Part shown: positions 1-29,100 of the stretch, one piece after another | Layout: each line of letters starts with the position of its first letter | Position numbering within the stretch: position 1 is the stretch's first letter | Notes under the pieces: generated by a model | The model's input: the letters and a program-made list of their open reading frames with translations, nothing else | What the model was told of the DNA's origin: nothing | Database searches by the model: none | From: an uncultured Bacilli bacterium | Lineage (GTDB): Bacteria > Bacillota_I > Bacilli_A > RF39 > UBA660 | Assembly (NCBI GenBank): GCA_905236935.1 | Contig: CAJOQL010000074.1 | Location: 1 to 29,569, forward strand | Reading direction: 5' to 3' | Length of the DNA stretch: 29,569 nucleotides | Translations under genes and position numbers: made by a program

Positions 1-2
1 AA

Positions 3-476
3 CTTAATAATTGGCAACATCAGGATTCTAAAAAAATAATCATTGCAAGAATTCCAACTGAATATATCAATCAAATGGGTGATCGTTCCGATATGGATGG
101 TGAAATGTTTGGCGCATTTTATACTCAAAAAATACAATCAAATGGTAATGGTACTAACTATTTAGATCCTAAATTTATTATTGGTTGTTTTGATGTTGAA
201 AAACAAGCGGTAAGATTAAATAGAAATTTTGAAAGAACTTTAACTCCTGAAACAATTGAACAGTTAAAAGTAGGATATAAAAAAGCTTTAGAAAAAACAA
301 AAGCAAGATTGGAAAGTCAACAACAAATATTTTCTAATATGGCACCTGTTTCTCAAGATATGCCACAGCAAATTGAACAAAGCATTCCACAAGAATGGGA
401 TATGTCTTCTTTTGATGATGAAAATATTGTTTGGGATGAACCAGATAAAACAATTAGTTCGGGTAGACATAGATAA
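3..476 (+). CDS. Hypothetical protein, 5' end outside the window
   Basis: The frame is open from base 3, so the gene begins left of the window; the first internal ATG is at base 75 and has no clear ribosome binding site. About 157 residues are visible. The middle part is mixed alpha/beta-like and includes DPKFIIGCFD. The end is a Gln-rich, acidic and probably disordered tail (residues such as SQDMPQQIEQ and SFDDENIVWDEPD). No known domain is recognised. A hairpin terminator follows at 517-548, so this is the last gene of its transcript. Confidence 0.6.
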   Translation, partial: LNNWQHQDSKKIIIARIPTEYINQMGDRSDMDGEMFGAFYTQKIQSNGNGTNYLDPKFIIGCFDVEKQAVRLNRNFERTLTPETIEQLKVGYKKALEKTKARLESQQQIFSNMAPVSQDMPQQIEQSIPQEWDMSSFDDENIVWDEPDKTISSGRHR

Positions 477-516
477 AAAATGGTTTAAGCACAAAATTAA
501 GTCTAACCAAGTATTC

Positions 517-548
517 AAAAAATGCAATAGCAAATATTGTATTTTTTT
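517..548 (+). terminator. Intrinsic terminator
   Basis: A 10-bp stem (520-529 with 535-544, one G-T pair) with a 5-base loop is followed by a T-run. It ends the transcript of the partial gene upstream. Confidence 0.65.
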
Positions 549-570
549 AATGCCAAAGTAATAATTGCTA

Positions 571-579
571 TGATATAAT
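571..579 (+). promoter_or_regulatory. Extended -10 promoter for the transglutaminase-like gene
   Basis: TGATATAAT matches an extended -10 element (TGnTATAAT) 30 bases ahead of the start codon. No good -35 hexamer is visible, which is usual for extended -10 promoters. It lies just after the terminator of the previous gene. Confidence 0.5.
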
Positions 580-608
580 AAAAATAACAATAGTAAGGAT
601 GATTTAAA

Positions 609-2648
609 ATGGAAATTATTAATATATGGGAAACATCTTTTGGAAATAGATATGAATATTTAAATAATATAAAGGATTTATTTCAACTTATCGAACCACG
701 AGATTTTAACAATATAGAAGTAAAAGACAAATACTTACCTGATGAAACTCCTGAATCCATATTAGAAGCGAGATACCAGAAAAGAAATCAGGGATTAAAT
801 TATATTAATGATAACCATTCTATTTTAGTTGAAAAAGAGCCATTATTTTTTTCTAAAAATATTATTATTTCAACTAAAGAATTTGAAAAAAGCAAAGACT
901 ATATTATTACTGAAATGGGAAAAAGGACAATAGAGTATATAGAGCAGCAGCATCCGAGATTTATAATTATAGATGCTTTATATTTTAGTGATGAATTATT
1001 AGATGTAGCACTGGCAAATTGTAATAGTGTAACTATTAATGATGTTGATTTAACTGATGAACAATTGCAAAAAATAAAAGATAGTTATATTGATGTTTAT
1101 TTAGAAAAAAATAGAAATAAAGAACTTATTAATGATAGCCGTTTATTAAATGAATATACTAAAAAAGACTTAGAAGAAAAGGAAAAGTTTTCTTTGGATA
1201 TTTCTGAATTGTCATTAGAAGAATTGAAAAATATTAAATTTATAAAAGATAATGTAAAAGTATCCTTATTAGCTTCACATAATGAGATATACGATGATGC
1301 ATATTATCAAAAATGTTTTGAAGTATTAAAAACTTTTAAAGAGTTAGGTAAAAATGTTAATGTTGATTTTAGAATAGGCACTAGATATGGTTTATCTAAA
1401 TATATTCCTGAATTAGAAAAATATACAGACTATAATTTGAAAGTAATTTGTGATGCTAATTTTTATACGATAGAAGAGTATATTCATGAAAACGAAAAAT
1501 TTGATAAGTTAGTTAGAGATATAAGAGATAGTTCTTTAAGTCCATTTGAAAAATACCTCGCTGTTTATAATATTGTAAAAAAATTCAAACCATATAAAGA
1601 AAACGATGAAGATTTAAATCAATCAAGGGACATAAGATACATAATAGATAATGAATACATTGTTTGTGCTGGTTATTCTAATTTGTTAGTGGAATTATTA
1701 GAAAGAGTAGGAATTGAATCAAGTTATTACAATACTAGTGTATATGGTATAGAAAATGATAAAAGCAAATATTTGGGAGGTCATGCTAGAACCATTGTAA
1801 ATCTTAAAGATGAAAAATATAATATTGATGGTTACTATATAGCTGATGCAACCTGGGATAATAATGACAATATAGGTGATACTTATGATTTTGCTTTAAG
1901 AACATTTGATAGTATGCAAAAATCATCACTTATGTTTGAATTAACAGAAACTGATTACATACTTGATAATCATAATTTTGAAGAATTTGTTCAAAAAGTT
2001 AATGTTTTACTAGATAAAAAAATTAAAAATCAAATGAAAAAAGAATATAATAAAAATGATTTTAAAAAGTGTCTATTAGAAGCATATAGTGAAATTTATA
2101 ATGATATCGTTATATTTTTTAGAAAAAATGATAAGAATGGTTATAATAAAATTCTTCCTTACATTCAAAAAAAGAACTTTAAAGTAGATGAATCATTTTA
2201 TGTCCAATTTTTAACTGAAGTAGGTCATTATATTGTAAATAAAAGTAATAAAGAAATTGATTTTGAAACATTATCAAAAGCTTCAGCTAATGCAAAATAT
2301 TATAAAGAAGATGTTCCAGATGTTCTAAAAGAAGCTTATTCAGAATTTGTAAAAAAAGAATTAGTAAAAAATAATTCAGAATATTTTATTCAATGGGAAA
2401 GCAAAGAGGAAAAGGAAAAGTTTGAAAGATTGATAGCACAAAATCAAATATATTTTATGGAAAACCCTTTGAATTTAGAAGCTGCAGGTGTTTCACTTAG
2501 TCAAGAAAAAAATGATAATACTTTAGTATTAAAACCAAAATCATCTCAAGGTAGGGGTGGATTCATTAGCATTAGTATAATTATTTCTTTAATAGTTATT
2601 ACAATAAGTGTTGTATCGTTGATAACTTATTATTTAATTACGAGGTAG
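609..2648 (+). CDS. Transglutaminase-like protein with a C-terminal membrane anchor
   Basis: The protein has 679 residues. The central region carries the transglutaminase-like (papain-fold) triad in the expected order and context: Cys353 in VCAGYSNLL, His392 in GGHARTIV and Asp413 in YIADATWD. Members of this fold act as proteases, amidases or cross-linking enzymes; the substrate here is unknown. Residues 1-340 are charged and lack a signal peptide. The last 30 or so residues form one hydrophobic helix ending in LITYYLITR, preceded by a Gly/Ser-rich stretch, so it is probably tail-anchored with the bulk in the cytoplasm. The start has an AAGGATG site and an extended -10 promoter. The next gene begins 3 bases after the stop and is likely co-transcribed. 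It is probably cargo of the mobile element; the fold call is firm, the role is not. Confidence 0.75.
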   Translation: MEIINIWETSFGNRYEYLNNIKDLFQLIEPRDFNNIEVKDKYLPDETPESILEARYQKRNQGLNYINDNHSILVEKEPLFFSKNIIISTKEFEKSKDYIITEMGKRTIEYIEQQHPRFIIIDALYFSDELLDVALANCNSVTINDVDLTDEQLQKIKDSYIDVYLEKNRNKELINDSRLLNEYTKKDLEEKEKFSLDISELSLEELKNIKFIKDNVKVSLLASHNEIYDDAYYQKCFEVLKTFKELGKNVNVDFRIGTRYGLSKYIPELEKYTDYNLKVICDANFYTIEEYIHENEKFDKLVRDIRDSSLSPFEKYLAVYNIVKKFKPYKENDEDLNQSRDIRYIIDNEYIVCAGYSNLLVELLERVGIESSYYNTSVYGIENDKSKYLGGHARTIVNLKDEKYNIDGYYIADATWDNNDNIGDTYDFALRTFDSMQKSSLMFELTETDYILDNHNFEEFVQKVNVLLDKKIKNQMKKEYNKNDFKKCLLEAYSEIYNDIVIFFRKNDKNGYNKILPYIQKKNFKVDESFYVQFLTEVGHYIVNKSNKEIDFETLSKASANAKYYKEDVPDVLKEAYSEFVKKELVKNNSEYFIQWESKEEKEKFERLIAQNQIYFMENPLNLEAAGVSLSQEKNDNTLVLKPKSSQGRGGFISISIIISLIVITISVVSLITYYLITR

Positions 2649-2651
2649 AAT

Positions 2652-2951
2652 ATGGATATAAAAATATTTGAAAATGAAGTAAAAAATAAAGAGTTTAATG
2701 AAAAAGGGACTGAATTAGTAGTTCTTACTAATGGTAAATTTAGAGTAGAAGAAGATATTAATTCAATGAGATTAGTATTAAAAGGATTAATACTAGAATC
2801 TGAACTAATAGAAACATTACATAGTATGGGAATAACTGAACATACATTAACTGATATAGAAGAATATGCTAATAAATTTAAAGAAGAAATAGATGTTACT
2901 ATTGTTCTTAAATTAATTGAACTATATAAAATGTTAGATTTAATAGGATAG
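2652..2951 (+). CDS. Small hypothetical protein
   Basis: A 99-residue protein that begins 3 bases after the transglutaminase-like gene, with a GAGGTAGA ribosome binding site overlapping that gene's stop codon. It is almost certainly translated in the same operon and may be a partner of the enzyme. The N-terminal third looks beta-rich (TELVVLTNGKFRVEED) and the rest alpha-helical and acidic. No signal peptide, membrane segment or known motif is recognised. Confidence 0.65.
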   Translation: MDIKIFENEVKNKEFNEKGTELVVLTNGKFRVEEDINSMRLVLKGLILESELIETLHSMGITEHTLTDIEEYANKFKEEIDVTIVLKLIELYKMLDLIG

Positions 2952-3058
2952 ATAATACTTTATATTAAATGAAATTTAACACAAAATGAAAGATATAATT
3001 AAAACGAAAAACAATATTTTAAAATGGTTCATAATATGATATATTTTTTATAAAGGTA

Positions 3059-3501
3059 GTGATAAAAATAGAACAAGAATATAATGAATTTAAAAAATAA
3101 TTGAAGAATCATACAAAGAAAATGGTATAGAGATACCTAATGTCATTACAAATGAATGGCTAGAAAAAGCTATGAGTAATAATACATTTAGCATATGGGG
3201 TTTTTCATTATTTGACATTTCAAATAAAAAATTTGTTGAAGAGATAGATAAAAATATATTACGAAGGGTTTCTTTTTCAACTAAAACTATATTACCTAAA
3301 GATAGTCCAATTAAATTAGATTCTAAAATGTATGAAATTGAATCAGAGCTTATAAATCTACATAATCAGGGAATTAATGGTGAAGGCATAAATGTTGCTA
3401 TTATAGACTTCGGCTTTAAATTTCCTCATAATGAGATAGAAAATGCTGAACTTATAAAAGAATTGGAACAGTTGTTTTTTGAGAAAATGAATTGGAATTA
3501 A
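3059..3501 (+). pseudogene. Broken subtilase-like (S8 peptidase) gene
   Basis: The region around 3376-3420 reads INGEGINVAIIDFGF, which matches the segment of S8 subtilisin-like peptidases that carries the catalytic Asp (usually VAIIDTG). The His and Ser motifs are absent because the frame stops soon after, at 3501. The upstream part is also broken. A GTG at 3059, preceded by AAAGG, opens a 13-codon frame that hits TAA in a run of six A at 3092-3097. The following frame continues without a stop from 3094 into the homologous region, so one base was lost in the A-run. What is left is the N-terminal quarter of a peptidase at most. A terminator follows directly. Confidence 0.6.
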
Positions 3502-3516
3502 TAAATAGTAAAATTA

Positions 3517-3554
3517 AAAACTGACAAATTAATGATTATTTCGTCAGTTTTTTT
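3517..3554 (+). terminator. Intrinsic terminator
   Basis: AAAACTGAC at 3517-3525 pairs with GTCAGTTTT at 3543-3551, and the T-run continues to 3554. It closes the broken subtilase unit. Confidence 0.75.
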
Positions 3555-3624
3555 ATATAGAGCAACTTGTTTAACGATTTTTATCAATTAGTATTGGTAT
3601 AAATAAAATTTTTTCGGAAAGATA

Positions 3625-3653
3625 TTGTTGCTTATTAAAAAATTTTATATAAT
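3625..3653 (+). promoter_or_regulatory. Promoter for the two small genes at 3679 and 4095
   Basis: TTGTTG at 3625-3630 and TATAAT at 3648-3653 are 17 bases apart, which fits a housekeeping sigma promoter. The start codon of the first gene is 25 bases downstream of the -10. Confidence 0.55.
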
Positions 3654-3678
3654 TAAGAAGTAAAATGGTGGTGTAGTT

Positions 3679-4080
3679 ATGTACAAAGATATCCAAGATA
3701 CAGTTAAATTGATAAATGAAATTTGTGAAATAATTAAAGAGTACAACAATGAAACTGAATATGAAGGAACGACTGGAACCATTAAAGATTTAATTATGCT
3801 TGATGAAGTAAGCACTGCTATAGAATTAAATAGATTAATTCAAACGAGTGATGGTAGAAAAATAATAATAGAAAAATTTAATAATACAATTGAAAAAACT
3901 AAACTATTTAGGCAAATAAGAATTGAATTCGAGCAATATTTATCTTATCCAAAAGAAATATGTGATAATATTGTTAAAAGTGAAATTAGGAATTGGAGTG
4001 TAACCGATCACAATATGATAAGACACTGGCATCTTTATTTAAAAATTAAAGATATGATTAGAATAATAAACGAAATGTAG
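3679..4080 (+). CDS. Hypothetical protein
   Basis: A 133-residue, mostly helical soluble protein with no signal peptide. It starts at ATG 3679 with GGTGGTG upstream. It is first in a two-gene unit with the 65-residue protein 14 bases downstream, bounded by a promoter at 3625 and a terminator at 4291. Two-gene units of this size on mobile elements are often toxin-antitoxin or immunity pairs, but no toxin motif is visible and no function is assigned. Confidence 0.6.
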   Translation: MYKDIQDTVKLINEICEIIKEYNNETEYEGTTGTIKDLIMLDEVSTAIELNRLIQTSDGRKIIIEKFNNTIEKTKLFRQIRIEFEQYLSYPKEICDNIVKSEIRNWSVTDHNMIRHWHLYLKIKDMIRIINEM

Positions 4081-4094
4081 ATTAGGAGGAGATA

Positions 4095-4292
4095 ATGATT
4101 ACAAAATTAGAAGAAAAGATATTAACTGAATTAGATTACCAAAGCCTTAATTCAAGTTTAATTGCATTTATTATGAAAAGCTTAGATAGTGTTGAAAAAC
4201 AAAGCCTATTTCTTGATTATCTTCTTTATAAAAGGGGGATAATAATTCCTATTCCTGATCTTTTCGATGAACTTAAATTACTAGCAAAATAA
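4095..4292 (+). CDS. Small hypothetical protein
   Basis: A 65-residue helical protein with a strong TTAGGAGGAG site 7 bases ahead of its ATG, 14 bases after the previous gene. Its composition resembles a short helical bundle. No family is recognised. It ends inside the left arm of a terminator. Confidence 0.6.
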   Translation: MITKLEEKILTELDYQSLNSSLIAFIMKSLDSVEKQSLFLDYLLYKRGIIIPIPDLFDELKLLAK

Positions 4293-4325
4293 AAGAATGT
4301 ATTAATAATTTCATACATTCTTTTT
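4291..4325. terminator. Bidirectional terminator between convergent genes
   Basis: AAAAGAATGTAT at 4291-4302 pairs perfectly with 4313-4324 around a 10-base loop, with A- and T-runs on the two sides. It serves the plus-strand small gene and probably also the minus-strand XRE gene. Confidence 0.7.
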
Positions 4326-4350
4326 AATTGATTTAAAGTTTTTATTATTA

Positions 4351-4614
4351 TTAATTATTATCTACTTTTTTATCGAGTAAATCTTCGTATCCATCAAAGA
4401 ATCTTCTAATATCAAAATTATATTTTTGTGATATATAGAAAAGAGTATCTAGTGAAACACCAACATCCACATTTGGGCTTTCAATTTGAGATATAAAGCT
4501 TCTACTCATATCTAAATCTTCTGCCATTTTTTCCTGTGATAATCCAATTAGTTCTTTTCTTATAACTTTCATATTTTTGCCGATAAGTTTAAATAATTCG
4601 TAAGTATTTTCCAC
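4351..4614 (-). CDS. XRE-family helix-turn-helix regulator
   Basis: An 87-residue Cro/C1-type DNA-binding protein. Helix 2 to helix 3 read LSQEKMAEDLDMSRSFISQIE, the classic HTH pattern, followed by the helix 4/5 region SLDTLFYISQKYNFDI. The start is set at GTG 4614. An ATG 15 bases upstream sits inside the GGGAGGT ribosome binding site and cannot be the start. It probably represses genes of the mobile element. A dyad (TGCTC/GAGCA) lies about 50 bases upstream and may be its operator. The acidic C-terminus (DGYEDLLDKK) could mediate dimerization, which is inferred only. Confidence 0.85.
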   Translation of the reverse strand: MENTYELFKLIGKNMKVIRKELIGLSQEKMAEDLDMSRSFISQIESPNVDVGVSLDTLFYISQKYNFDIRRFFDGYEDLLDKKVDNN

Positions 4615-4662
4615 AATAATACCTCCCATAACATAATTGTATAGAAAATATCATCATAAAAC

Positions 4663-4681
4663 TGCTCAATGGTATCGAGCA
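4663..4681. promoter_or_regulatory. Operator-like dyad upstream of the XRE gene
   Basis: TGCTC at 4663-4667 and GAGCA at 4677-4681 form an inverted repeat; one more pair each side is nearly symmetric. It lies 49 bases upstream of the minus-strand XRE start, where an autoregulated repressor would bind. Binding is inferred. Confidence 0.35.
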
Positions 4682-4792
4682 AAAAACTTTTATCTTTTGA
4701 ATAAATATGCTATTATTAAAATAAAGTAATTAGTGCAGTATCTTAATTACAAATATATAATGAACAGGAGCTGATACATATAGAATACAAAT

Positions 4793-4838
4793 AAAAAAGT
4801 AATTAATTTATCTTTTGCAGGGAATAATTAATTACTTT
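4793..4838 (-). terminator. Terminator of the second XRE gene
   Basis: On the minus strand a 13-bp perfect stem (4826-4838 with 4796-4808) is followed by a T-run. The upstream arm includes the last codons and stop of the XRE gene. Confidence 0.7.
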
Positions 4839-5106
4839 GCCTATCAACTCTTAATGAGTTTATAATTTTATTTTCATCATAGGTTAATAAATCTGCACTA
4901 CTAACTGTATATTTTAATAGTTTAGTAATTTTGCTAGATATTTTATCTAATGTATCAACTGAAACATTTCTACGATATTGTTCCAGTTCTCTTTCATACG
5001 TTAGACTTATATCTAGTTCTTCGGCGAATCTTTCTTGAGTCATGTTTAATTGATACCTATAGAATTTTAAATTTATTGCTACAATTTCTTTACTGCTTTT
5101 AATAAT
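4828..5106 (-). CDS. XRE-family regulator, probably with a non-AUG start
   Basis: The HTH core reads LNMTQERFAEELDIS, typical of Cro/C1 regulators. The first in-frame ATG (5043) lies inside this motif and would remove helix 1. The frame stays open upstream and encodes the expected helix 1 (KEIVAINLKFYRYQLN). A perfect AGGAGG at 5113-5118 is placed for ATA 5109, ATT 5106 or ATT 5103, and no ATG, GTG or TTG is available there. Initiation at ATT, as known for infC, is the simplest reading and gives about 93 residues. A start-codon mutation that silenced the gene is the alternative. The second half of the HTH (LTYERELEQYRRN) is slightly divergent. It is divergent to the pseudo-receiver gene and probably controls it. 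Confidence 0.65.
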   Translation of the reverse strand: MIKSSKEIVAINLKFYRYQLNMTQERFAEELDISLTYERELEQYRRNVSVDTLDKISSKITKLLKYTVSSADLLTYDENKIINSLRVDRQSN

Positions 5107-5142
5107 TATTCGCCTCCTATTAATGAAAATAACTAATTTTAT

Positions 5143-5183
5143 TATAATTTACTAACAACCTGTTGTCCTGCCAACGATTGTTG
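5143..5183 (+). promoter_or_regulatory. -10 element and two dyads ahead of the pseudo-receiver gene
   Basis: TATAAT at 5143-5148 is followed by two short palindromes of the same half-site, CAACCTGTTG (5156-5165) and CAACGATTGTTG (5172-5183). They lie in the divergent region between an XRE gene and the pseudo-receiver gene, so a repressor bound there would block transcription to the right. No good -35 is visible. Confidence 0.4.
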
Positions 5184-5207
5184 ATAGCATAAAAGAAAGG
5201 AACTTAA

Positions 5208-5858
5208 ATGGATGTAATTATATATTTATTAATTGTTATTATATTTTTAATTATGTTAGTTTTATTATCGCTTTATATCACTATAATTGGTAAAAATAAG
5301 TTATCTATTAAAGTTATAAATGATGATAATACTAATAAATTAAAAGAAGAAACTGATAAACTTAAAATAGATTTGAGAAAAAGCAAGTGGAGTAATGATA
5401 AAGCATTTATTAAAAATACTTTTTTAAATAAAAAGATTGAAATACTTGATGCTTATGAACTTAAGCATTCTAATATAAAATATAATCCTATTTTTAAATC
5501 TAAAAGAGCGATAATAGTTAATAATGATGCAGACATAATAATATCTATAAGATCAGTTTTACTATCATTGGGAATTGAAGTTGATTATGTACTTAATATT
5601 GATGATGCAATTAAAGCCATAGGTGATAATGGACATTATGATTTAGCTTTTATTGCTGCATCTTATGAATATGGTTTTATTAATAATTTTTTAAAAATAA
5701 TAAGAAGCGATTATGAAGATGGTGACTTAATAATATTATTAACTGGAAAAATGAAAAATATTACTAAAATTGATAATAAATATAATGTTCATATTGAAGA
5801 TAAGATAAGTCAGAAGAAATTGATAGATTTATTAAAAGTTTATTTTAAAGTATTATAG
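5208..5858 (+). CDS. Membrane-anchored pseudo-receiver protein
   Basis: 216 residues. Residues 4-28 form one transmembrane helix, 35-95 a Lys/Asp-rich linker, and 100-216 a CheY-like receiver fold: AIIVNNDADI (strand 1 and acidic pocket), YDLAFIAAS (strand 3), IILLTG (strand 4 with the conserved Thr179) and EDK (Lys199). The phosphoacceptor Asp that should follow strand 3 is Ala150, so classic phosphorylation is not expected. No output domain is attached. A membrane-bound, non-phosphorylatable receiver probably works by protein-protein contact. The start has an AAAGGAA site. It is followed by a strong terminator at 5950. The fold assignment comes from motif spacing and is fairly secure. Confidence 0.65.
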   Translation: MDVIIYLLIVIIFLIMLVLLSLYITIIGKNKLSIKVINDDNTNKLKEETDKLKIDLRKSKWSNDKAFIKNTFLNKKIEILDAYELKHSNIKYNPIFKSKRAIIVNNDADIIISIRSVLLSLGIEVDYVLNIDDAIKAIGDNGHYDLAFIAASYEYGFINNFLKIIRSDYEDGDLIILLTGKMKNITKIDNKYNVHIEDKISQKKLIDLLKVYFKVL

Positions 5859-5919
5859 TTTTAAAAAAATTATTCTTAAAATATTGATTTTTAGTTAATA
5901 ATATATTATATTTATGTTG

Positions 5920-5982
5920 TCAATTGGTGTTATACAATTGATGTAGTATAGGTGGTTGCTGTTATAGGACCACCTTTTTTTT
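5920..5982 (+). terminator. Dyad followed by a strong terminator
   Basis: AGGTGGT (5950-5956) pairs with ACCACCT (5969-5975), and T8 follows, giving a clear intrinsic terminator. Just upstream, TCAATTG (5920-5926) and CAATTGA (5935-5941) form a separate 7-bp inverted repeat of unknown role. Confidence 0.75.
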
Positions 5983-6031
5983 AAAAATGACAATTAGTAA
6001 CATGGTATCTATATATGAAAGAGAGGGTTTT

Positions 6032-6445
6032 ATGGCTAGTAATATTAAAGAAATGATTAATGAAATAATTGATTATAAAAGTAATAATCCTTATGTCCCA
6101 AAGTATAATTTTAGTTTTACAAGTGAAGAATTAGAAAAAAATCCTATTTTAAATAAGTACGAAAAATTATATAACAATCAAGAATACAATATTAAAGTAA
6201 TTTTATTATGTATTAAATATGTAGGAGATGATATTATTCCTTTTGATTCTTTTGAAAATTTTGTTATATTACAGGTTGAAGATGTAAATGAAGATAAGAT
6301 AGTAGTCATTAATGATTTAGTGTCATACAAAAACCGCTCGTATGATAAAATTAAAGAAGATTTCGAAAAAAAACAGAATTTTTTTAACACTGCAACTTTA
6401 GAAATGGCTCTATCTTTTATAAATAGAGAGATTGCTAAAAACTGA
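6032..6445 (+). CDS. Hypothetical protein
   Basis: The start is set at ATG 6032, which has GAGAGGG at the right distance. An in-frame ATG 45 bases upstream follows the terminator T-run and has no ribosome binding site. The 137-residue protein is soluble and mixed alpha/beta; the segment DSFENFVILQVEDVNEDKIVVINDL looks like beta strands and is followed by a helical tail. No known family is recognised. It stands alone between a terminator and the regulatory block at 6454. Confidence 0.6.
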   Translation: MASNIKEMINEIIDYKSNNPYVPKYNFSFTSEELEKNPILNKYEKLYNNQEYNIKVILLCIKYVGDDIIPFDSFENFVILQVEDVNEDKIVVINDLVSYKNRSYDKIKEDFEKKQNFFNTATLEMALSFINREIAKN

Positions 6446-6453
6446 TATTCTAC

Positions 6454-6508
6454 GATGAGGACAAAATGAGACCAAATTGTGCAGTAATTGAGAACAAATT
6501 GAGAACGA
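6454..6508 (+). repeat. Five tandem 11-bp repeats, likely activator-binding array
   Basis: Five consecutive 11-bp units start at 6454, 6465, 6476, 6487 and 6498. Units 4 and 5 read ATTGAGAACAA and ATTGAGAACGA; units 1 and 2 (GATGAGGACAA, AATGAGACCAA) differ at two or three positions, and unit 3 is most diverged. The 11-base period places each unit on the same face of the helix. The array ends 7 bases before the -35 hexamer at 6516, the position used by activators that contact RNA polymerase. The binding protein is unknown. Confidence 0.6.
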
Positions 6509-6515
6509 AAAAGTG

Positions 6516-6543
6516 TTGATTTGTTTTTGTCAAGTGGTATAAT
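6516..6543 (+). promoter_or_regulatory. Promoter downstream of the 11-bp repeat array
   Basis: TTGATT at 6516-6521 and TATAAT at 6538-6543 are 16 bases apart. Transcription would start near 6550 and run through a structured leader, a terminator, a leader ORF and a second terminator into the sigma-like gene at 6858. Confidence 0.6.
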
Positions 6544-6549
6544 GTGGTA

Positions 6550-6706
6550 AACTTGTATGAAAAAGCGAAAAAAGCTATTGATTTTACAAGATTTTTATTT
6601 TATAATAACTCGTAATTAATTTATTAATCGCAGTTTTGCGGTGAGTTATATATTATAGAAGGGTAGTATTTGGATTCTATATGAATTTTAATACTATCCT
6701 TTTTTA
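6550..6706 (+). ncRNA. Candidate structured leader RNA ending at an intrinsic terminator
   Basis: Between the promoter at 6516 and the terminator at 6659 there is no convincing gene. The segment 6601-6657 folds into a long hairpin: AACTC (6607-6611) pairs with GAGTT, the outer TATAAT pairs with ATTATA across a 4-base bulge, and a nested CGCA-GTTT-TGCG hairpin sits at 6629-6640. The product would be an RNA of about 155 bases. It could be a small RNA or an attenuator. It matches no riboswitch class I can name. This entry and the next features account for the gene-free stretch 6446-6857. Confidence 0.35.
6659..6706 (+). terminator. First terminator of the regulatory block
   Basis: AAGGGTAGTATT (6659-6670) pairs with AATACTATCCTT (6690-6701), followed by T-rich sequence. 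It sits directly after the hairpin at 6601-6657 and so is well placed for attenuation. Confidence 0.7.
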
Positions 6707-6722
6707 TTTGATAGGGGTTATT

Positions 6723-6842
6723 ATGATTTGTAAGGTAGTAATTGATATTGCAAATTTAGTAAGTTTTCATTTAAGTTTAATTTTTAAAGAGAAATTTATG
6801 GGTATAATGCGCTCTAAATTTCTCTTTTTTATATTTCAGTAG
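6723..6842 (+). CDS. Leader ORF (39 codons) running through a terminator
   Basis: ATG 6723 has AGGGG 5 bases upstream. The frame encodes 39 residues (beginning MICKVVIDIANLV) and ends with TAG at 6840-6842, just ahead of the ribosome binding site of the sigma-like gene. The intrinsic terminator at 6786-6830 lies completely inside this frame, so translating ribosomes would melt its hairpin. This resembles the translated leader ORF in front of tet(M) in Tn916. The peptide itself may have no function. Expression is inferred from the ribosome binding site and layout. Confidence 0.45.
   Translation: MICKVVIDIANLVSFHLSLIFKEKFMGIMRSKFLFFIFQ
6786..6830 (+). terminator. Second terminator, inside the leader ORF
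   Basis: A perfect 13-bp stem (6786-6798 with 6815-6827) is followed by T6. It lies between the leader ORF start and the sigma-like gene and would block transcription unless the leader is translated. Confidence 0.75.
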
Positions 6843-6857
6843 AAATGGGGGATATGA

Positions 6858-7358
6858 ATGAGCGAAAGGGATAATGGTAAAGCTATTAGTAGATTTGATG
6901 ATGGTATTAATCCAGAATGTTTTGTTTTAGAAAAGGTTGTTTGGAGTAAGTATGATATGACTTTAACCAGAGAAAATGTAGATTTATTCTTGAATGAGTA
7001 TTTTGAAGCAAAATCAATTTGCTTTAAAACATTATTTTTAAGTAAAATGACTTCAACGATTGATCCAAACAAAATATTTGTGCCATCAATAGTTAATAAT
7101 GGTGGTCATGCTGATAAGGTTAATGAAAAAGTAGATGCGGAATCCATTATTATTAATACTGAGCCATTATTAAACGAAGTATTAAAAACTTTCACACCAA
7201 AGGAAAAGCTATATTATGAATATTGTCTTATTAATAAGTATAGTGAAGATTACATAATGGAAAAATTTGGAAACATATCAAAAAATGGCTTATTACCAAT
7301 TAAGAATTCTTGTATTTTAAAACTTGCTTTAGTATTTGAAATAGCAGTATTAAAATAA
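6858..7358 (+). CDS. Sigma/ArpU-like transcription regulator of the element
   Basis: A 166-residue protein starting at ATG 6858 with GGGGA upstream. The C-terminal 60 residues read FTPKEKLYYEYCLINKYS and then YIMEKFGNISKNGLLPIKNS, which resembles a sigma region 4/ArpU-type helix-turn-helix: the usual phrase is xxEKxxxxxxYxxxxSxxxIAxxL. Genes of this type sit in the regulatory module of phages and Tn916-like elements (for example Orf7 of Tn916) and activate later genes. The N-terminal 100 residues are unfamiliar. Its expression is probably controlled by the tandem repeats, leader and two terminators upstream. The family assignment is moderate because the HTH is divergent. Confidence 0.5.
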   Translation: MSERDNGKAISRFDDGINPECFVLEKVVWSKYDMTLTRENVDLFLNEYFEAKSICFKTLFLSKMTSTIDPNKIFVPSIVNNGGHADKVNEKVDAESIIINTEPLLNEVLKTFTPKEKLYYEYCLINKYSEDYIMEKFGNISKNGLLPIKNSCILKLALVFEIAVLK

Positions 7359-7385
7359 ATGGAAACAATAGTAGTATTTATAATA

Positions 7386-7410
7386 ATAGCTTAGTTATAA
7401 GCTATTTTTT
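7386..7410 (+). terminator. Short intrinsic terminator
   Basis: ATAGCTTA (7386-7393) and TAAGCTAT (7398-7405) form an 8-bp stem with a 4-base loop followed by T-rich sequence. It separates the sigma-like gene from the small genes. Confidence 0.65.
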
Positions 7411-7425
7411 ATGTGGAGGAAAATT

Positions 7426-7533
7426 ATGATTTTAGAAATTTTACTATTAGTAATAGGAATAATCCTATTATTTATTTTTTGCAGTTTAAAATTATCAGCA
7501 AAGGCTGACGAAGAAATGGAGAAATTAAAATGA
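7426..7533 (+). CDS. Small single-pass membrane protein
   Basis: A 35-residue ORF with a strong TGGAGG site ahead of ATG 7426. Residues 2-21 are a hydrophobic helix (ILEILLLVIGIILLFIFCS) and the tail is charged (KADEEMEKLK). Its stop overlaps the next gene's start as ATGA, which indicates coupled translation. Proteins like this are common on Gram-positive mobile elements, and the function is unknown. Confidence 0.6.
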   Translation: MILEILLLVIGIILLFIFCSLKLSAKADEEMEKLK

Positions 7534-7745
7534 AAATAAAAACATATTTAGCGATAATACAAATTAATGATGAAATTATAACTATGCTTAGAAATGGCAA
7601 AAATAGAAACTGTGTAAAAATGGATATTATAGATTTAATGAGAAATTATTATTTAATTAAAAAAAATAGAATGATTAGATCTAAAGATATTCAAATTATT
7701 TTAGTTAGAGTTGAATATCATAATGGTGATTATATAGTATTGTAA
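7530..7745 (+). CDS. Small hypothetical protein
   Basis: A 71-residue basic protein, translationally coupled to the small membrane protein by the ATGA overlap. It looks like a helix followed by beta strands (IQIILVRVEYHNGDYIVL). It could be a small DNA-binding accessory protein, given its net positive charge and position upstream of the recombinase, but there is no recognisable motif. About 200 bases after it carry no supported gene. Confidence 0.55.
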   Translation: MKIKTYLAIIQINDEIITMLRNGKNRNCVKMDIIDLMRNYYLIKKNRMIRSKDIQIILVRVEYHNGDYIVL

Positions 7746-7942
7746 AAGTCAAGTATGCGATTTAAAATTTTATACATTTTTGTTATGAGTTTAATAAATA
7801 TATAATGTATTTGAAAATATTATTTTGTATTTTTATCTCATTTAAGAGTATTAGTTTTAAATCAAATATAATTTGTAATATTTATGAATATTGGTTCTTT
7901 TTTAAAATAAAATTAATAAATCTAAATGAGAGGTGAAAATAT

Positions 7943-8137
7943 TTGAATAGTATATTAGATAATGATTCTTATATTAATTCAAAAGTATTACCTAAAGAAT
8001 ATCTTATATTAAAATTAAGAATGATATTTAATGAGGAATTATTTGATAAAGAAATTATATCATTCGATACTTATAATCGGATGCAAACTTTATTAATTAA
8101 AAAAATGAATAAAATACTTTTGATTTTAGAAGAATAA
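7943..8137 (+). CDS. Small SHOCT-like protein upstream of the recombinase
   Basis: A 64-residue protein starting at TTG 7943 with GAGAGGTG 8 bases upstream. The segment KLRMIFNEELFDKEIISFDTY resembles the SHOCT pattern (short helix, acidic turn, "G/I-I-S/T-x-x-E/T-Y/F"), and genes of this kind often precede serine recombinases in Firmicutes elements. It ends 16 bases before the recombinase and is likely in the same transcript. It could help control excision; that is inference. Confidence 0.5.
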   Translation: MNSILDNDSYINSKVLPKEYLILKLRMIFNEELFDKEIISFDTYNRMQTLLIKKMNKILLILEE

Positions 8138-8153
8138 ATGAAAGGATAATCTT

Positions 8154-9947
8154 ATGGATATAATTAAGGCAAGGCAGGAATTATCACTTGGCAAATCAAT
8201 ATTTGATATGAAATTAAGAGTAGTTGATTTAAATCGTGTATCTACAGATAAAGAGGAACAATTAAATTCTTTGAGTAATCAAGTAAATTATTTTACGGAT
8301 TTAATAGATAGTGTTAAAAATTGGACTCATGTTGCTACATATTCTGATGAAGGAATAAGTGGAACGCAAACATATAATAGAGAAGAATTTTTAAAGATGA
8401 TTTTTGATGCTAAATTAGGAAAGTTTGATTTAATACTAACTAAGGAAGTATCTAGATTTGCTCGTAATACAGTTGATAGTATTAATTATACAAAAATGTT
8501 ACTTAATTATGGTGTTATAGTTTATTTTATATCTGATAATATAAATACACTTGATCCAGATAGCGAATTTAGATTAACATTAATGGCTAGCCTTGCTCAA
8601 GATGAAATTAGAAAATTATCTCAAAGGGTAAAATTTGGTGTACAAAGAAGTATTAAAGATGGAAAAGTTGGTGGTGGTGGCTTGTATGGATATGATAAAA
8701 GAGATGGTAAATTAACAATTAGAGAAGATGAAGCAATTGTTGTTAAAAAAATATTTTCTTTATATTCTGCTGGTAAACTTGGCTTTCGGAAAATAGGAGA
8801 AAAACTTGCTGAAGAAGGTATTTATACAAGAAAAGGAAAAATTTTTAGTGATGTTACATTAAAAAAAATGATAACTAATCCTAGATATAAAGGGTGGTAC
8901 ACTGGAAATCTATCTGGGGTTGTTGATTACCTAACTCATAAAAAGAAAGCTAAGCCAAAGGAAGAATGGGTTGTCCACCCAGATAAAACTGGATCAGTAC
9001 CTGCTATTGTATCAGAAGAATTATGGAATAGAGTTAATGATATATATAAGGAAAGATTAAAAGTAGCAAATAAAAATGTCTTGAATAAAGAAGAATATTT
9101 AAAGAATTCAACTTATACCTCAAAATTATTTTGTTTAGAACATAATACTACGTTTATAAGAACTGCTAATGGAAAAAGAAAAGAAAATCCAGTTTGGCAA
9201 TGTAATGAATATTTAAGACATGGTATAAAAGGTTGTGCAACACCTATATTATATGAAAAACATTTGAATGAGATTTTTTCTAATATACTTGATAATTTTA
9301 TAGATAATAAAGATGAATTACTTAATACGATAGAAAAAGATTATATTAATATAATTAAGGAAACAAATAAGAATTATGATGTAGATGAATTAAAAGCAAA
9401 AATATTAGAAGAAGAAAAAATGAAAGATAGATTACTTGATATGTCATTAAGAAAGATTATAAGTGAAGAGGAATATATCAACAAAAAGGAGAAAATAGAT
9501 AATGACTTGGAACAATTAAAAGAAGAATTAATTAAAATTGAAAGTAATACAGATTCTTCAGATTATTATGCAAATATAATAGAAAATATTAGAAATGAAA
9601 TTAAGCCTAAAATGAATGTAAAAGAAAATGTTAATACATATTTTAATTTATTTATTGATAAGGTATTTGTTAGTAAAATTGATAATGATCGAAAACATAT
9701 AAAATTACAAATTGTATTTAAGTTCAATAAAAATGATATGGAACTTGAATTAAATTTAAATCGTAACAATAATAATGGCTCTGGTGGTAGTATTGACCAA
9801 TTATTAGATAATATTACTAATAAAGGATCAAATAGAGATTATACATTTAAGCTGTCAGTGGACAGCAAATATTTAAAACAAAAGTATCTCTTGCTCGATG
9901 CCAATGAATCCAGGTTTTGTAGTATTGGGTCAAAGACTGGGCACTGA
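8154..9947 (+). CDS. Large serine recombinase (integrase) of the element
   Basis: 597 residues. The N-terminal resolvase domain has the catalytic Ser30 in RVSTD, the DEGISGT segment, and the conserved Arg in SRFARN. A recombinase domain follows (DEAIVVKKIFSLYSAGK to ITNPRYKGWYTG). After that come a zinc-ribbon-like segment (CLEH ... WQCNEYLRHGIKGC) and a coiled coil (about residues 410-490). It would catalyse integration and excision between att sites. It lies at the end of the element in the usual orientation, with AAAGGAT ahead of the ATG. Oddly, the frame crosses the integration point: roughly the last 15 residues and the TGA at 9945-9947 are encoded by the interrupted host gene in a different frame. 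In the excised circle the C-terminus must therefore be different. Confidence 0.92.
   Translation: MDIIKARQELSLGKSIFDMKLRVVDLNRVSTDKEEQLNSLSNQVNYFTDLIDSVKNWTHVATYSDEGISGTQTYNREEFLKMIFDAKLGKFDLILTKEVSRFARNTVDSINYTKMLLNYGVIVYFISDNINTLDPDSEFRLTLMASLAQDEIRKLSQRVKFGVQRSIKDGKVGGGGLYGYDKRDGKLTIREDEAIVVKKIFSLYSAGKLGFRKIGEKLAEEGIYTRKGKIFSDVTLKKMITNPRYKGWYTGNLSGVVDYLTHKKKAKPKEEWVVHPDKTGSVPAIVSEELWNRVNDIYKERLKVANKNVLNKEEYLKNSTYTSKLFCLEHNTTFIRTANGKRKENPVWQCNEYLRHGIKGCATPILYEKHLNEIFSNILDNFIDNKDELLNTIEKDYINIIKETNKNYDVDELKAKILEEEKMKDRLLDMSLRKIISEEEYINKKEKIDNDLEQLKEELIKIESNTDSSDYYANIIENIRNEIKPKMNVKENVNTYFNLFIDKVFVSKIDNDRKHIKLQIVFKFNKNDMELELNLNRNNNNGSGGSIDQLLDNITNKGSNRDYTFKLSVDSKYLKQKYLLLDANESRFCSIGSKTGH
9893..9907 (+). 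other. Right attachment site (attR) in the PBP gene
   Basis: To the left the sequence is the recombinase; to the right it is the PBP reading frame from NPGFVVLGQRLG onward. Homologues have a Ser-x-Asn motif exactly here; this junction reads Pro-Met-Asn, so the Ser codon has been replaced and the crossover lies at or just before 9904. The core dinucleotide cannot be fixed without the left junction. Confidence 0.6.
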
Positions 9948-10767
9948 AACATTATATAAATACTTACAAGACTTTGGATTTGGAAAGAAAACTGGCATTG
10001 ACTTAAATGGAGAATCTACGGGAATTATGTTTAAATTAGAAAATATGGGCCCAGTTGAAACAGCTACTACAGCTTTTGGTCAGGGAATAAGTGTTACTCC
10101 GATTCAGCAGGTTACTGGGGTTAGTGCTGCTATTAATGGAGGAACTCTTTATAAACCATACATTGTTAAAAGTATTAATGAAGGAGAAACAAATAGTACT
10201 ATTCTTTTAAATAAACCAGTAAAGGTGAGAAAAGTTATAACTGAAGAATCATCTAAACTTGTGAGATATGCTTTAGAAAGTGTAGTTGCTAATGGGACAG
10301 GAAAAAATGCTTATATTGAAAATTATAGAGTTGGTGGTAAAACCGGAACTGCTCAAAAAGTTAAAGATGGTAAATATATGGTAGGAAACTATATTGTATC
10401 GTTTATTGGTTTTTTACCTGCTGATAAGCCTGATTATGTTGTTTATGTTGCAATTGATAATCCCAAAGGGATTACTCAGTATGGTGGAACTGTAAGTGCA
10501 CCAATTGCTAAAAATGTCATGTTATCAATTATTGATTATAAAGAGTACCCCAAAGTTGAAAGTGATAAAACCAGAGAATATACTTGGCTAGATCAAAAAT
10601 ATGTCAAATTACCTGATGTAATTAATATGGATTTACAAGAAGCAAAAAAACTCTTAAAAGGGTTTAGTATTGAATATAATGGAAGCGGAGAAAAAGTATT
10701 AGACCAGTCACCAAACGGGAATGCGTTTGTTAAAGAAGGTAGTATAGTTAAATTAATGTTATATTAA
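9898..10767 (+). pseudogene. ftsI: 3' part of an interrupted penicillin-binding protein gene (FtsI/SpoVD type)
   Basis: 289 codons survive. They start right at the SxN motif of the transpeptidase domain (MNPGFVVLGQRLG), continue through KTG (VGGKTGTAQ, Lys codon at 10339) and end with one PASTA domain (YVKLPDVINM to the C-terminus). The N-terminal membrane anchor, dimerization domain and catalytic SxxK serine are missing because the mobile element is inserted there. ATG 9898 has no ribosome binding site and lies in the junction, so this fragment is probably not translated. Its position before mraY and ftsW and its PASTA domain fit the division transpeptidase of the dcw cluster; a sporulation-type SpoVD is the alternative. 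The 5' part should be left of the element. Excision would restore the frame. Confidence 0.85.
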
Positions 10768-10827: not shown

Positions 10828-10847
10828 TATAATGTGAGGTGCTAGGT

Positions 10848-11843
10848 ATGTTAATATTAGCAAAATCAATTTTAGGTTTAATGTTAGGCTTTGTCTTATC
10901 TTTAATATCAGCAGCTGTTTTTATTCCACTTTTAAGAAGATTACATGTAGGGCAAAGCGTTAGTAGATTAATAAATGTAAGACATTTAAAAAAAGAAGGA
11001 ACTCCAACGATTGGGGGAGTAATATTTATAATTCCAACTTTGCTTATAATGTTGATTTTATATTTAAGAGGCAGTATTGATTTAAATCCTAATTTGATTA
11101 TTATATTGTTCGTTTTTATTGCATATGGATTATTAGGCTTTGTAGATGATTTTTTAAAGGTTAGATATCATAACAATAAAGGACTTCCAACTTTAGGAAA
11201 ACTTGCTTTACAAACGGTAATAGCAATAATATTCTACATAATTTTTATGAAAAATGGGGGAGATACTACTGTAGTTATATCTTCACTAAATAATTTAACT
11301 CTTCCTCTTGGTTGGGGGTATGGAATATTTATATTTTTAGTTTTAGTAGGTACAACTAATGCAGTTAATATAACTGATGGCTTAGATGGCCTTGCTGGTG
11401 GACTATCTGTTATGGCATTTTTGTCTTTTGGAGTAATTGCCTGGGGATCAAATTGGATTTCTGGATATCAAGAAATAGCTATCTTTGCTTTTGTTATAGT
11501 AGGCTCATTACTTGGATTTTTAGTATTTAATACATATCCAGCAAAAGTATTTATGGGGGATACGGGTTCTTTAGCATTAGGTGCAGCTCTTGCTACAATA
11601 GCGATTCTAACAAGACACGAACTATCATTAGTTTTAGTAGGTGGTGTATTTGTAGCAGAAACACTAAGTTCATTAATTCAAATTATAGCAATTCGCAAAT
11701 TCCACAAAAAAGTATTTAAAAAAGCTCCACTTCATCATCATTTTGAAGAACTTGGTTGGGTAGAAACTGATATAGTAAAATTATTCTGGGTTGTTGGTTT
11801 TTTATTATCAATGATAGGAATTATTTACGGAGTTTGGTTATAA
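10848..11843 (+). CDS. mraY: Phospho-MurNAc-pentapeptide transferase MraY
   Basis: Transfers phospho-MurNAc-pentapeptide from UDP to undecaprenyl phosphate, making lipid I at the inner face of the membrane. The 331 residues show the family's marks: about ten hydrophobic segments, FVDDFLKV (the DD motif), NITDGLDGLAGG, and PLHHHFEELGW near the C-terminus. The start is ATG 10848, with GAGGTG upstream; a GTG at 10839 overlaps that ribosome binding site. It has its own promoter and is followed 20 bases later by ftsW, the usual dcw order. Confidence 0.96.
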   Translation: MLILAKSILGLMLGFVLSLISAAVFIPLLRRLHVGQSVSRLINVRHLKKEGTPTIGGVIFIIPTLLIMLILYLRGSIDLNPNLIIILFVFIAYGLLGFVDDFLKVRYHNNKGLPTLGKLALQTVIAIIFYIIFMKNGGDTTVVISSLNNLTLPLGWGYGIFIFLVLVGTTNAVNITDGLDGLAGGLSVMAFLSFGVIAWGSNWISGYQEIAIFAFVIVGSLLGFLVFNTYPAKVFMGDTGSLALGAALATIAILTRHELSLVLVGGVFVAETLSSLIQIIAIRKFHKKVFKKAPLHHHFEELGWVETDIVKLFWVVGFLLSMIGIIYGVWL

Positions 11844-11863
11844 AATTTTAATAGGTGATTATA

Positions 11864-12946
11864 TTGAAAAAAAGCCTATTAATTTTTTTTGCTACAATTT
11901 TACTTGGTCTATTTGGTTTATTAATGGTTTATTCTTCATCAAGCATTTGGAGTGAATATAAATATAATGATGCTTTTTATTATGTGAAACATCAAGCAAT
12001 TTTTTACTTTCTTGGAATAATATTAATTCTTACTTTAAGAAAATTTGATTATAATTTTTATAAGAAAAATGCAAATAAGATATTATTTATTTGTTTTATA
12101 CTTTTAATATTAGTATTAATTCCTGGTATTGGAAAGGTGAGAAATGGATCAAGAAGTTGGTTTGGAATAGGTCCTTTTGGATTACAACCTTCTGAAATAA
12201 GTAAAATAGCTCTTATTATTTTTACATCTAAATATCTTGCTAATAATGAAAAAGAAGTTAAAAATTTTAAAAAGGGAGTATTACCAATTCTTTTAATAAT
12301 AGGATTGTTTTTTGGACTTATAATGTTAGAACCAGATTTTGGAACAGGTATGGTTATTGTAATGACATTAATATCTATGTTATTTGTTTCTAATATTAAG
12401 TTTTCATTTTTTGGATATATGGGTCTTTTAGGTATTCTTGGAATTGTCCTTTTAATTATAATTGCGCCATATCGAATGAGTAGAATTGTATCATTTATAA
12501 ACCCATGGTCTGATCCATTAGGTTCTGGATTTCAAATAATTCAAAGTTTATATGCCATTGGACCAGGAGGATTATTTGGTCTTGGTTTAGGAAATTCAAT
12601 ACAAAAACACTTTTATTTACCAGAGCCTCAAACTGATTTTATTTTTGCTATTATTTCAGAGGAATTTGGCATTATTGGTATTTTAATTATTAGCATACTA
12701 TTTTTAATTCTTTTTATTAATACTTTAAAAATTAGTTTAAATGAAAATGATTTATTTGCTAAATATTTATCTTTCGGACTTATTATGGGAATTATTTTAC
12801 AAACTATTTTGAATATTTCAGTAGTTATAGGATTAGTTCCAGTAACTGGTGTAACTTTGCCATTTATAAGTTATGGTGGGTCATCTTTATTAGTATCAAT
12901 GGCAAGCGTGGGAATAATTTTAAATATTGCCAGAAATATTGACTAG
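11864..12946 (+). CDS. ftsW: SEDS-family cell division glycosyltransferase FtsW
   Basis: A polytopic protein of 360 residues that polymerises lipid II into glycan strands at the septum, normally paired with the FtsI-type transpeptidase. Family marks are the conserved GIGKVRNGSRSWFGIG loop, LPEPQTDFIFAIISEEFG and the C-terminal PFISYGGSSLL. The start is taken as TTG 11864, 6 bases after TAGGTG; the in-frame GTG 11855 is part of that ribosome binding site. Its partner PBP is the gene broken by the element just upstream. A promoter for the next gene begins inside its last codons. Confidence 0.95.
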   Translation: MKKSLLIFFATILLGLFGLLMVYSSSSIWSEYKYNDAFYYVKHQAIFYFLGIILILTLRKFDYNFYKKNANKILFICFILLILVLIPGIGKVRNGSRSWFGIGPFGLQPSEISKIALIIFTSKYLANNEKEVKNFKKGVLPILLIIGLFFGLIMLEPDFGTGMVIVMTLISMLFVSNIKFSFFGYMGLLGILGIVLLIIIAPYRMSRIVSFINPWSDPLGSGFQIIQSLYAIGPGGLFGLGLGNSIQKHFYLPEPQTDFIFAIISEEFGIIGILIISILFLILFINTLKISLNENDLFAKYLSFGLIMGIILQTILNISVVIGLVPVTGVTLPFISYGGSSLLVSMASVGIILNIARNID

Positions 12947-13042: not shown

Positions 13043-13846
13043 GTGCTTGCATCAGATGTAGCAAGACTCTACAATTCCGAGGTTAGAATAATAAATCAAG
13101 TAGTAAAAAGAAACATTAATAGATTTCCAGAAAATTTTTGCTTTCAATTAACTACAAATGAATATGAATTTTTGAAATCACAATTTGTGATTTCAAAAAA
13201 CAAAGAAAATGTTGGACGTGGTGGTAACAGACACTTACCTTATGTTTTTACTGAACATGGAATTATGATGTTATCAGGTTTATTAAAAAGTGATGTGGCC
13301 GCCAATGTTAATGTTTTAATTATTAATGCATTTGTTGCAATGAAAAAACATATATCAAACAATTTAATAGAACAAAAATATATAAATAATATGGTGCTAA
13401 AACACGATAATGAAATAAAATTATTACAAGAATCGTTTGATAAAATGAGTGGAAAGATGAAAAATAATCATTTGTTTTATGATGGACAAGTATATGATGC
13501 ATATTCATTAATGATTGATATATTTAATTTATCAAAAGAAAGTATAATAATAATTGATAATTATGTTGATAAAAACTTACTAGATATTTTATCAAAAACA
13601 AATAAAGAAGTAGTAATAATAACTAATAAATATAATGAAATGGATTTAAATAAATACAAAAAAGAATATAAAAATATCAAAATTAAGATTAAAAATAAAA
13701 TACATGATAGATTTATCATAATTGATAATACTACTTTATATCATTGTGGAGCCTCATTTAAAGACTTAGGAACTAAATGTTTTGCAATTAATAAAATAGA
13801 AGATAAAGAATTAATAAATCAAATAAAATGCTATATTAATAGATAG
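13043..13846 (+). CDS. ORF6N-domain protein with PLD-like C-terminal domain
   Basis: The first 110 residues are the ORF6N domain of phage antirepressor-type proteins (LASDVARLYNSEVRIINQAVKRN-like, then LPYVFTEHGIMMLSGLLKSDVAA). The C-terminal half (YDAYSLMIDIFN, then IIIIDNYVDKNLL, then HDRFIIID) matches a phospholipase-D-like fold with an H-x-R-x4-D version of the HKD motif. The normal N-terminus (MNEIIEKENMIY at ATG 12994, AAGGGA upstream) is in another frame: after TAT 13027-13029 the frames no longer agree, so about a dozen N-terminal residues are lost. GTG 13043 has AGGAG 8 bases upstream and can start the rest. It interrupts the dcw cluster and is probably a foreign insertion. It may bind DNA; its true target is unknown. 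Confidence 0.75.
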   Translation: MLASDVARLYNSEVRIINQVVKRNINRFPENFCFQLTTNEYEFLKSQFVISKNKENVGRGGNRHLPYVFTEHGIMMLSGLLKSDVAANVNVLIINAFVAMKKHISNNLIEQKYINNMVLKHDNEIKLLQESFDKMSGKMKNNHLFYDGQVYDAYSLMIDIFNLSKESIIIIDNYVDKNLLDILSKTNKEVVIITNKYNEMDLNKYKKEYKNIKIKIKNKIHDRFIIIDNTTLYHCGASFKDLGTKCFAINKIEDKELINQIKCYINR

Positions 13847-29032: not shown

Positions 29033-29100
29033 TTTCAAAACCTCCTCATATAATAGAATTTTAGCAAATGTTTGCTTTCTATACAATGATATTTTTAAAA

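Follow-up and report, generated by a model that had tools for sequence, protein, structure and literature searches.

A serine recombinase element at the SxN codon of spoVD: a probable variant of the sporulation gene-intervening elements in uncultured gut Bacilli

The DNA analysed here (the window: a stretch of 29,569 nucleotides from an uncultured Bacilli bacterium; we take the hosts in this analysis to be of the order RF39) contains only the right end of an integrative element, followed by host genes of the dcw cluster. It reads, in order, a small ORF, a large serine recombinase, the right attachment site (attR), the 3' part of a penicillin-binding protein (PBP) gene identified below as spoVD, mraY and spoVE (Table 1). 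Comparison with relatives places the start of the spoVD sequence at codon 9907-9909, the Asn of the SxN active-site motif, the preceding codons being those of the element. The ORF that holds this part (9898-10767) matches the Pfam transpeptidase domain (299 positions) only over positions 104-298, with PASTA in addition, and the spoVD part matches positions 346-633 of the 636 in TIGR02214 (333.9 bits). The 5' part is absent from the window, where tblastn returned the 3' part as the sole spoVD match. The recombinase frame overruns attR by about 38 nt (9907-9947), its last dozen residues being spoVD DNA read out of frame, so that the recombinase C-terminus would change on excision. An overrun past the junction is also seen in several other recombinases of the SxN site, while those of genomes G002, G003, G005 and G006 end before it.

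Table 1. Features of the window around the right junction of the element.
Feature	Position	Strand	Basis
Right part of integrative element	1..9906	+	Left end outside window; right boundary from comparison with intact and cut relatives
Candidate recombination directionality factor, small ORF, 64 aa	7943..8137	+	Position before recombinase; putative role
Large serine recombinase, 597 aa	8154..9947	+	Resolvase and Recombinase domains; phrog_95 integrase, 353.6 bits
attR element arm: GTATCTCTTGCT then 11 nt	9884..9906	+	Same 12 nt in G001
attR core AA (bases 1 and 2 of the SxN Asn codon)	9907..9908	+	Best symmetry centre in 10/10 related elements
spoVD 3' part, Asn of SxN through KTG to PASTA	9907..10767	+	TIGR02214 and Pfam transpeptidase/PASTA matches
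mraY, host dcw cluster	10839..11843	+	ORF named by eye
spoVE/ftsW, host dcw cluster	11855..12946	+	TIGR02615 and TIGR02614 matches

Three other loci of the window were recorded. An ORF6N-domain protein (13043-13846; 87.0 bits) lies between spoVE/ftsW and the later dcw genes, and a 679-aa protein of the element (609-2648) has a transglutaminase-like match below threshold (21.1 vs 23 bits). At the far end, on the minus strand (28220-29568), is the remnant or end of a second element, with the C-terminal part of a recombinase carrying DUF4368, a domain reported as common in multi-targeting recombinases (PMC10083194), beside a Bro-N protein.

The window recombinase matches the Pfam Resolvase (E 7.6e-26) and Recombinase (E 1.9e-21) domains, and its zinc ribbon scores just below the cut-off (23.3 vs 25.3 bits). 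Of 12 elements examined, with three insertion sites pooled, 11 have a small ORF directly before the recombinase; in G006 none was found. The window's copy has no Pfam match, and the position and conservation of these ORFs suggest that they likely encode a directionality factor. The elements at the SxN site that are assembled through measure about 5.5 kb (G003), 2.7 kb (G005), 9.1 kb (G006) and 3.0 kb (G002); the window element exceeds 9.9 kb. Their cargo varies, that of G003 including ABC-transporter-like genes (assigned by eye). The spoVD element of G006 (locus L113, 7793-14989) encodes a cargo protein of 2398 aa whose C-terminal region is that of an M26 peptidase. Among the nine proteins of the visible part of the window element, its left part lying outside the window, there is no phage structural gene; phage matches amount to one integrase and one weak transcription-regulator match. 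No relative of the recombinase was confirmed in viral_contigs.

The cut gene had been taken in an earlier note on this DNA for an essential division PBP. Against TIGR02214, the model of stage V sporulation protein D (cut-off 688), the intact orthologue L003 reaches 713.2 bits and L001, also intact, 710.0; on the same proteins the PBP2 (mrdA) model stays below its cut-off and the FtsI, PBP2X and PBP2B models far below theirs. The SEDS neighbour in the window passes both the spoVE model (TIGR02615, 450.9 bits; cut-off 448.8) and that of FtsW (TIGR02614, 414.4 bits; cut-off 337.5). The search for another PBP that the note had proposed, when run in the relatives, yielded an additional class B PBP in 13 of 13. 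It is about 710 aa long, G001 and G006 having it as pieces at contig edges, and a simple pattern search shows motifs like SxxK, SxN and KTG. Three of these proteins were scanned and fell below the SpoVD cut-off; PBP2X was the top model for two and the runner-up for the third, under its own cut-off as well. In Clostridioides difficile, dcw-encoded peptidoglycan synthases are reported to act in sporulation and not in vegetative division (PMC10693644). Judged by these models, the cut gene is spoVD, which encodes a sporulation-specific class B PBP, and not the divisome gene ftsI. The match to the SpoVD model, together with the further class B PBP in the relatives, makes sporulation rather than vegetative division the process at stake.

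Relatives of the 3' part were compared among the best 80 of 201 loci. Within this set the gene is full-length in 65 loci and cut just before N-P-G-F in 11 loci from 10 genomes; the others comprise one locus cut at another site (L041) and three that stop at a contig edge (L002, L055, L071). A related recombinase lies directly upstream in nine of the ten genomes cut at this codon, the contig of the tenth (G008, L056) ending before it. The 5' part of spoVD was present in all 13 genomes searched. In 10 of 10 cut genomes it ends V-V-E-N-S-C-N and then departs from the SpoVD sequence, a stop being reached within 20 residues in nine; the frame of G002 stays open for longer. Since the left junctions depart from SpoVD after S-C-N in all ten, the reading by which the element itself supplies a substitute 3' half at the left junction, the gene never being broken, was rejected. 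Both junctions of the SxN element lie on one contig in G003, G005, G006 and G002. Thus the claim of an integrative element whose end falls on the Asn of SxN holds for the window junction and for the 10 relatives cut at the same codon, and the 5' half expected at its other end is found in those relatives but not within the window. An intact second copy, named in the note as the sign of a decayed remnant, was sought as well: no backup spoVD was found in the cut genomes, other matches to the 5' part being 28-47% identical.

Some of these loci have features of their own. The MAG G002 (L014, L093, L107) has cuts at SxxK and at SxN together, which leave its spoVD as three pieces. Two apparent alleles in G007 were ruled out, the two contigs being a 99.96% overlap of one locus. 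A 343-aa protein, P0121, ends S-C-N-L-V-F. P0242 is the nearest relative of this protein and also of the window's 3' part (93.3% each), with the next relatives in a different order (P0123, 91.3 and 89.1%; P0149, 87.5 and 91.6%; P0246, 82.7 and 87.4%, for P0121 and the window part, respectively). P0121 may be the missing 5' part of the window's gene or that of a sister.

The left attachment site (attL) reads TGY-AAY-CT in 10 of 10 elements, and attR ends AAY-CC in the window and in 10 genomes. Set back to back, the two arms of an element make an inverted repeat that is best centred on AA in 10 of 10 elements, with 12 to 21 of 25 positions complementary as against shuffle means of 6.3 to 8.3; symmetry is weakest in G006 (12 of 25, p 0.03) and G010 (13, p 0.004). 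The window arm has its first 12 nt and its 11-nt spacing to AA in common with G001, whose opposite arm makes an inverted repeat about AA. In all nine genomes whose flanks were joined at the 2-bp AA, the frame lengthened from 353-386 codons to 637-655 and included STFK and KTGT, both ends being on one contig in G003, G005 and G006 and on separate contigs of one MAG in the other six; G002 was excluded because it is cut twice. The joins agree with the prediction in the note that precise excision would rebuild the enzyme. In the relatives, the sequences display the insertion point, the core, the inverted arms, both gene halves and the rebuilt frame, as well as the occupied and empty sites and the sporulation genes described below; everything about the window element's own left end we infer.

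On a tree of the 80 3' parts, the 11 cut loci require 10 changes (at least 8 by starred branches) and are no more clustered than shuffled labels. Judged from this tree, the scatter of insertions across the hosts is the mark of repeated insertion. Over 351 residues the SxN-cut protein P0161 and intact L009 share 99.4% identity, and proteins cut at a second site, Gln415, are up to 98.8% identical to intact L003; cut and intact proteins being nearly identical, the sites occur both occupied and empty.

Of 290 genomes sampled from the family, 235 have a match. Among the 150 family matches listed (about 86 more lie beyond), the frame is of 625 aa or longer in 109, of 340-395 aa in 20, of 410-450 aa in 18 and of another length in 3; a length suggesting a cut is thus seen in 38 of the 150, contig ends being counted in and swelling the short classes. 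Ten loci of each short class were fetched for checking. In the SxN class, six have an element tail, L132 is uncut, L127 lies at a contig edge and L131 and L133 reveal only the end of the alignment. In the Gln415 class nine are cut, three of them with a recombinase in the stretch, and the tenth (L137) is an incomplete stretch. In a class draw of 198 genomes, short frames made up 7 of 18 matches at 58% identity or above vs 1 of 39 others (Fisher p 0.0008), shortness being scored by frame length only and the centre genome being among the 18.

Further cut sites are SxxK, seen in G011 and G002, and Gln415, seen in L122 and other loci. The 5' part was also used as the query of a protein search, full-length SpoVD being excluded by size: by pattern, among the 120 of 2792 hits listed, 51 are cut at Gln415 and 36 at SxN, 10 lack the motif, 19 are of other kinds and 4 have an intact 3' half. 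The tails of two motif-lacking proteins, P0151 and P0210, suggest SxN and Gln415 cuts, and seven proteins end just past STF[KN]. Six (P0167, P0181, P0192 and P0211-P0213) have foreign-looking tails after Y-G-G-T-V, possibly a fourth cut site, predicted from proteins; P0223 was dropped from this group, its tail resembling uncut SpoVD. The recombinases of the SxN site (10 sequences) and of Gln415 (3 sequences) form separate clades with support of 99/98 and 100/100. It seems conceivable, and we put it forward tentatively, that spoVD is a multi-slot docking gene for recombinase clades each with its own motif (SxxK, SxN, Gln415 and possibly YGGTV), and that spores would need programmed removal of elements. 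The proposal applies to one family of small-genome uncultured gut Bacilli, includes one genome cut at two sites and makes the removed elements cargo-bearing.

The hosts retain sporulation genes. SpoIVA scores over its cut-off in 13 of 13 genomes, including all 10 cut ones, and in 249 of 290 genomes of the family; Spo0A does so in 12 of 13, the match in G002 being partial. Matches of SigE type were obtained in 10 of 13, at 286 to 308 bits (that of G011 contains a stop), the curated cut-off of 348.6 bits being reached in none of the 13. Comparing cut 3' parts with their nearest intact relatives gave a median dN/dS (NG86) of 0.088 (n = 11), as against 0.085 (range 0.029-0.225, n = 68) for intact nearest pairs. 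L074 (0.370) and L045 (0.257) exceed the intact range, which could reflect relaxed selection, and L080 (0.197) is high but within it. Synonymous divergence in these pairs is large (0.62-2.59) and recent insertions would look alike, so dN/dS is no proof of retained function. A promoter scan with sigma-factor consensus sequences covered 11 upstream regions. Allowing one mismatch at most, it found sigma-E-like sites in two of them, the window's included, vs 6.6% of shuffles, which is near chance, and no sigma-K-like site in the regions scanned. No attP or circle junction was found in viral_contigs (searched with one arm type) or in 6 genomes (one other arm type).

These data are probably best accounted for by a variant of the skin, gin and yin class of sporulation gene-intervening elements, residing in spoVD. 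A large serine recombinase would have inserted the element at the AA of the SxN Asn codon. With the element in place SpoVD is encoded as two pieces, each without the full set of catalytic motifs; recombination of attL with attR would give TGY-AA-YCC (Cys-Asn-Pro) and a full-length SpoVD, the small protein encoded upstream probably assisting the recombinase as its directionality factor. By analogy with skin in sigK or gin in gerE, excision would most likely take place in the mother cell during sporulation. Were it restricted to that cell, the spore line would keep the element while the mother cell would regain its spore-wall transpeptidase.

Plain inactivation would need no such timing: spoVD would be a handy landing site, the strain would have lost sporulation, and excision would serve element transfer without any developmental link. 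The near-chance promoter scan and the want of a circle junction in the searches made are in keeping with this, as are the raised dN/dS of L045 and L074 and the position of cut loci at scattered tree tips, expected of recent and perhaps short-lived insertions. The missing small ORF and weak arm symmetry of G006, and SigE hits short of the cut-off, likewise weigh against a sporulation-timed element. We nevertheless regard inactivation as less likely, in that the cut genomes retain SpoIVA and Spo0A matches, both spoVD pieces are open up to the junction, and the median dN/dS is equal in cut and intact genes, though a recent insertion would look the same.

The earlier note had gone further in another direction and seen in the element a switch over vegetative septal peptidoglycan synthesis, acting through an interrupted, essential FtsI. 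Such a divisome role is very improbable: the gene does sit in the dcw cluster, flanked by the recombinase and mraY/ftsW, and its SEDS neighbour also passes the FtsW model, but the SpoVD identity and the additional class B PBP of all 13 relatives both disfavour it. A misjoining of element and spoVD in assembly or binning might be suspected from a window with one junction only and from comparison genomes that are MAGs. It is scarcely credible given a cut at the same codon in 10 genomes and in 36 of the 120 listed proteins, and given the four genomes with both junctions on a single contig.

Excision of DNA timed to sporulation has been described for a few genes of cultured Bacillus and Clostridium. 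Elements have been described in sigK, spsM, spoVFB, gerE and yabG (PMC10747680, PMC5595907). Those in sigK (skin), spsM (SPbeta) and spoVFB (vfbin) are serine recombinase elements whose precise excision rejoins the gene (PMC10747680, PMC5595907); they are prophages or prophage-like and occupy other genes, whereas the nine proteins in the visible part of the window element include no phage structural gene. Another known system is gin, a non-phage element of 28.6 kb with three recombinases in gerE of Bacillus cereus ATCC10987, which needs the recombinase GirC and the small factor GirX for excision and restores gerE during sporulation (PMC5595907). Like gin, the spoVD elements split a sporulation gene and encode a serine recombinase; unlike it they span about 2.7 to more than 9.9 kb, have one recombinase seen and belong to uncultured gut Bacilli, excision being shown for gin alone. 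The prophage-like yin, known from one strain, lies in yabG of Clostridium botulinum V73, with its recombinase near one end and a small putative directionality factor (PMC10747680). It resembles the spoVD elements in its sporulation-gene target, terminal recombinase and small ORF, whereas the spoVD cuts recur over a host family. Convergence of diverse large serine recombinases on one conserved coding site, such as a prolyl isomerase gene, has also been reported (PMC10083194), and the varied recombinases on spoVD are similar in this respect; the main text of that paper, searched for this term and not for spoVD, contains 'penicillin-binding' 0 times.

In the literature searched, most subscription papers lying beyond its reach, no report of a natural spoVD element was found. 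ICEBs1 is likewise an integrative element that has been found within spoVD, with an integration system unrelated to the serine-recombinase one described here. That case, in B. subtilis, concerns a laboratory-obtained secondary site from which excision was undetectable (PMC3715440).

If the proposed mechanism is true, a peptidoglycan synthase gene would join those subject to sporulation-timed excision, uncultured gut Bacilli would join the hosts, and the elements involved would range down to about 2.7 kb in size. Excision from spoVD would then be common, a frame length suggesting a cut being seen in 38 of 150 listed family matches, contig ends included. A survey has reported the presence of spoVD as reduced or absent in the order RF39 (PMC10868615). 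Split genes could partly explain this scarcity, which bears on the prediction of spore-forming gut bacteria. Since removal of the element would restore a SpoVD that is cut at its active site, cells of this kind may be able to form spores only by editing their own DNA.
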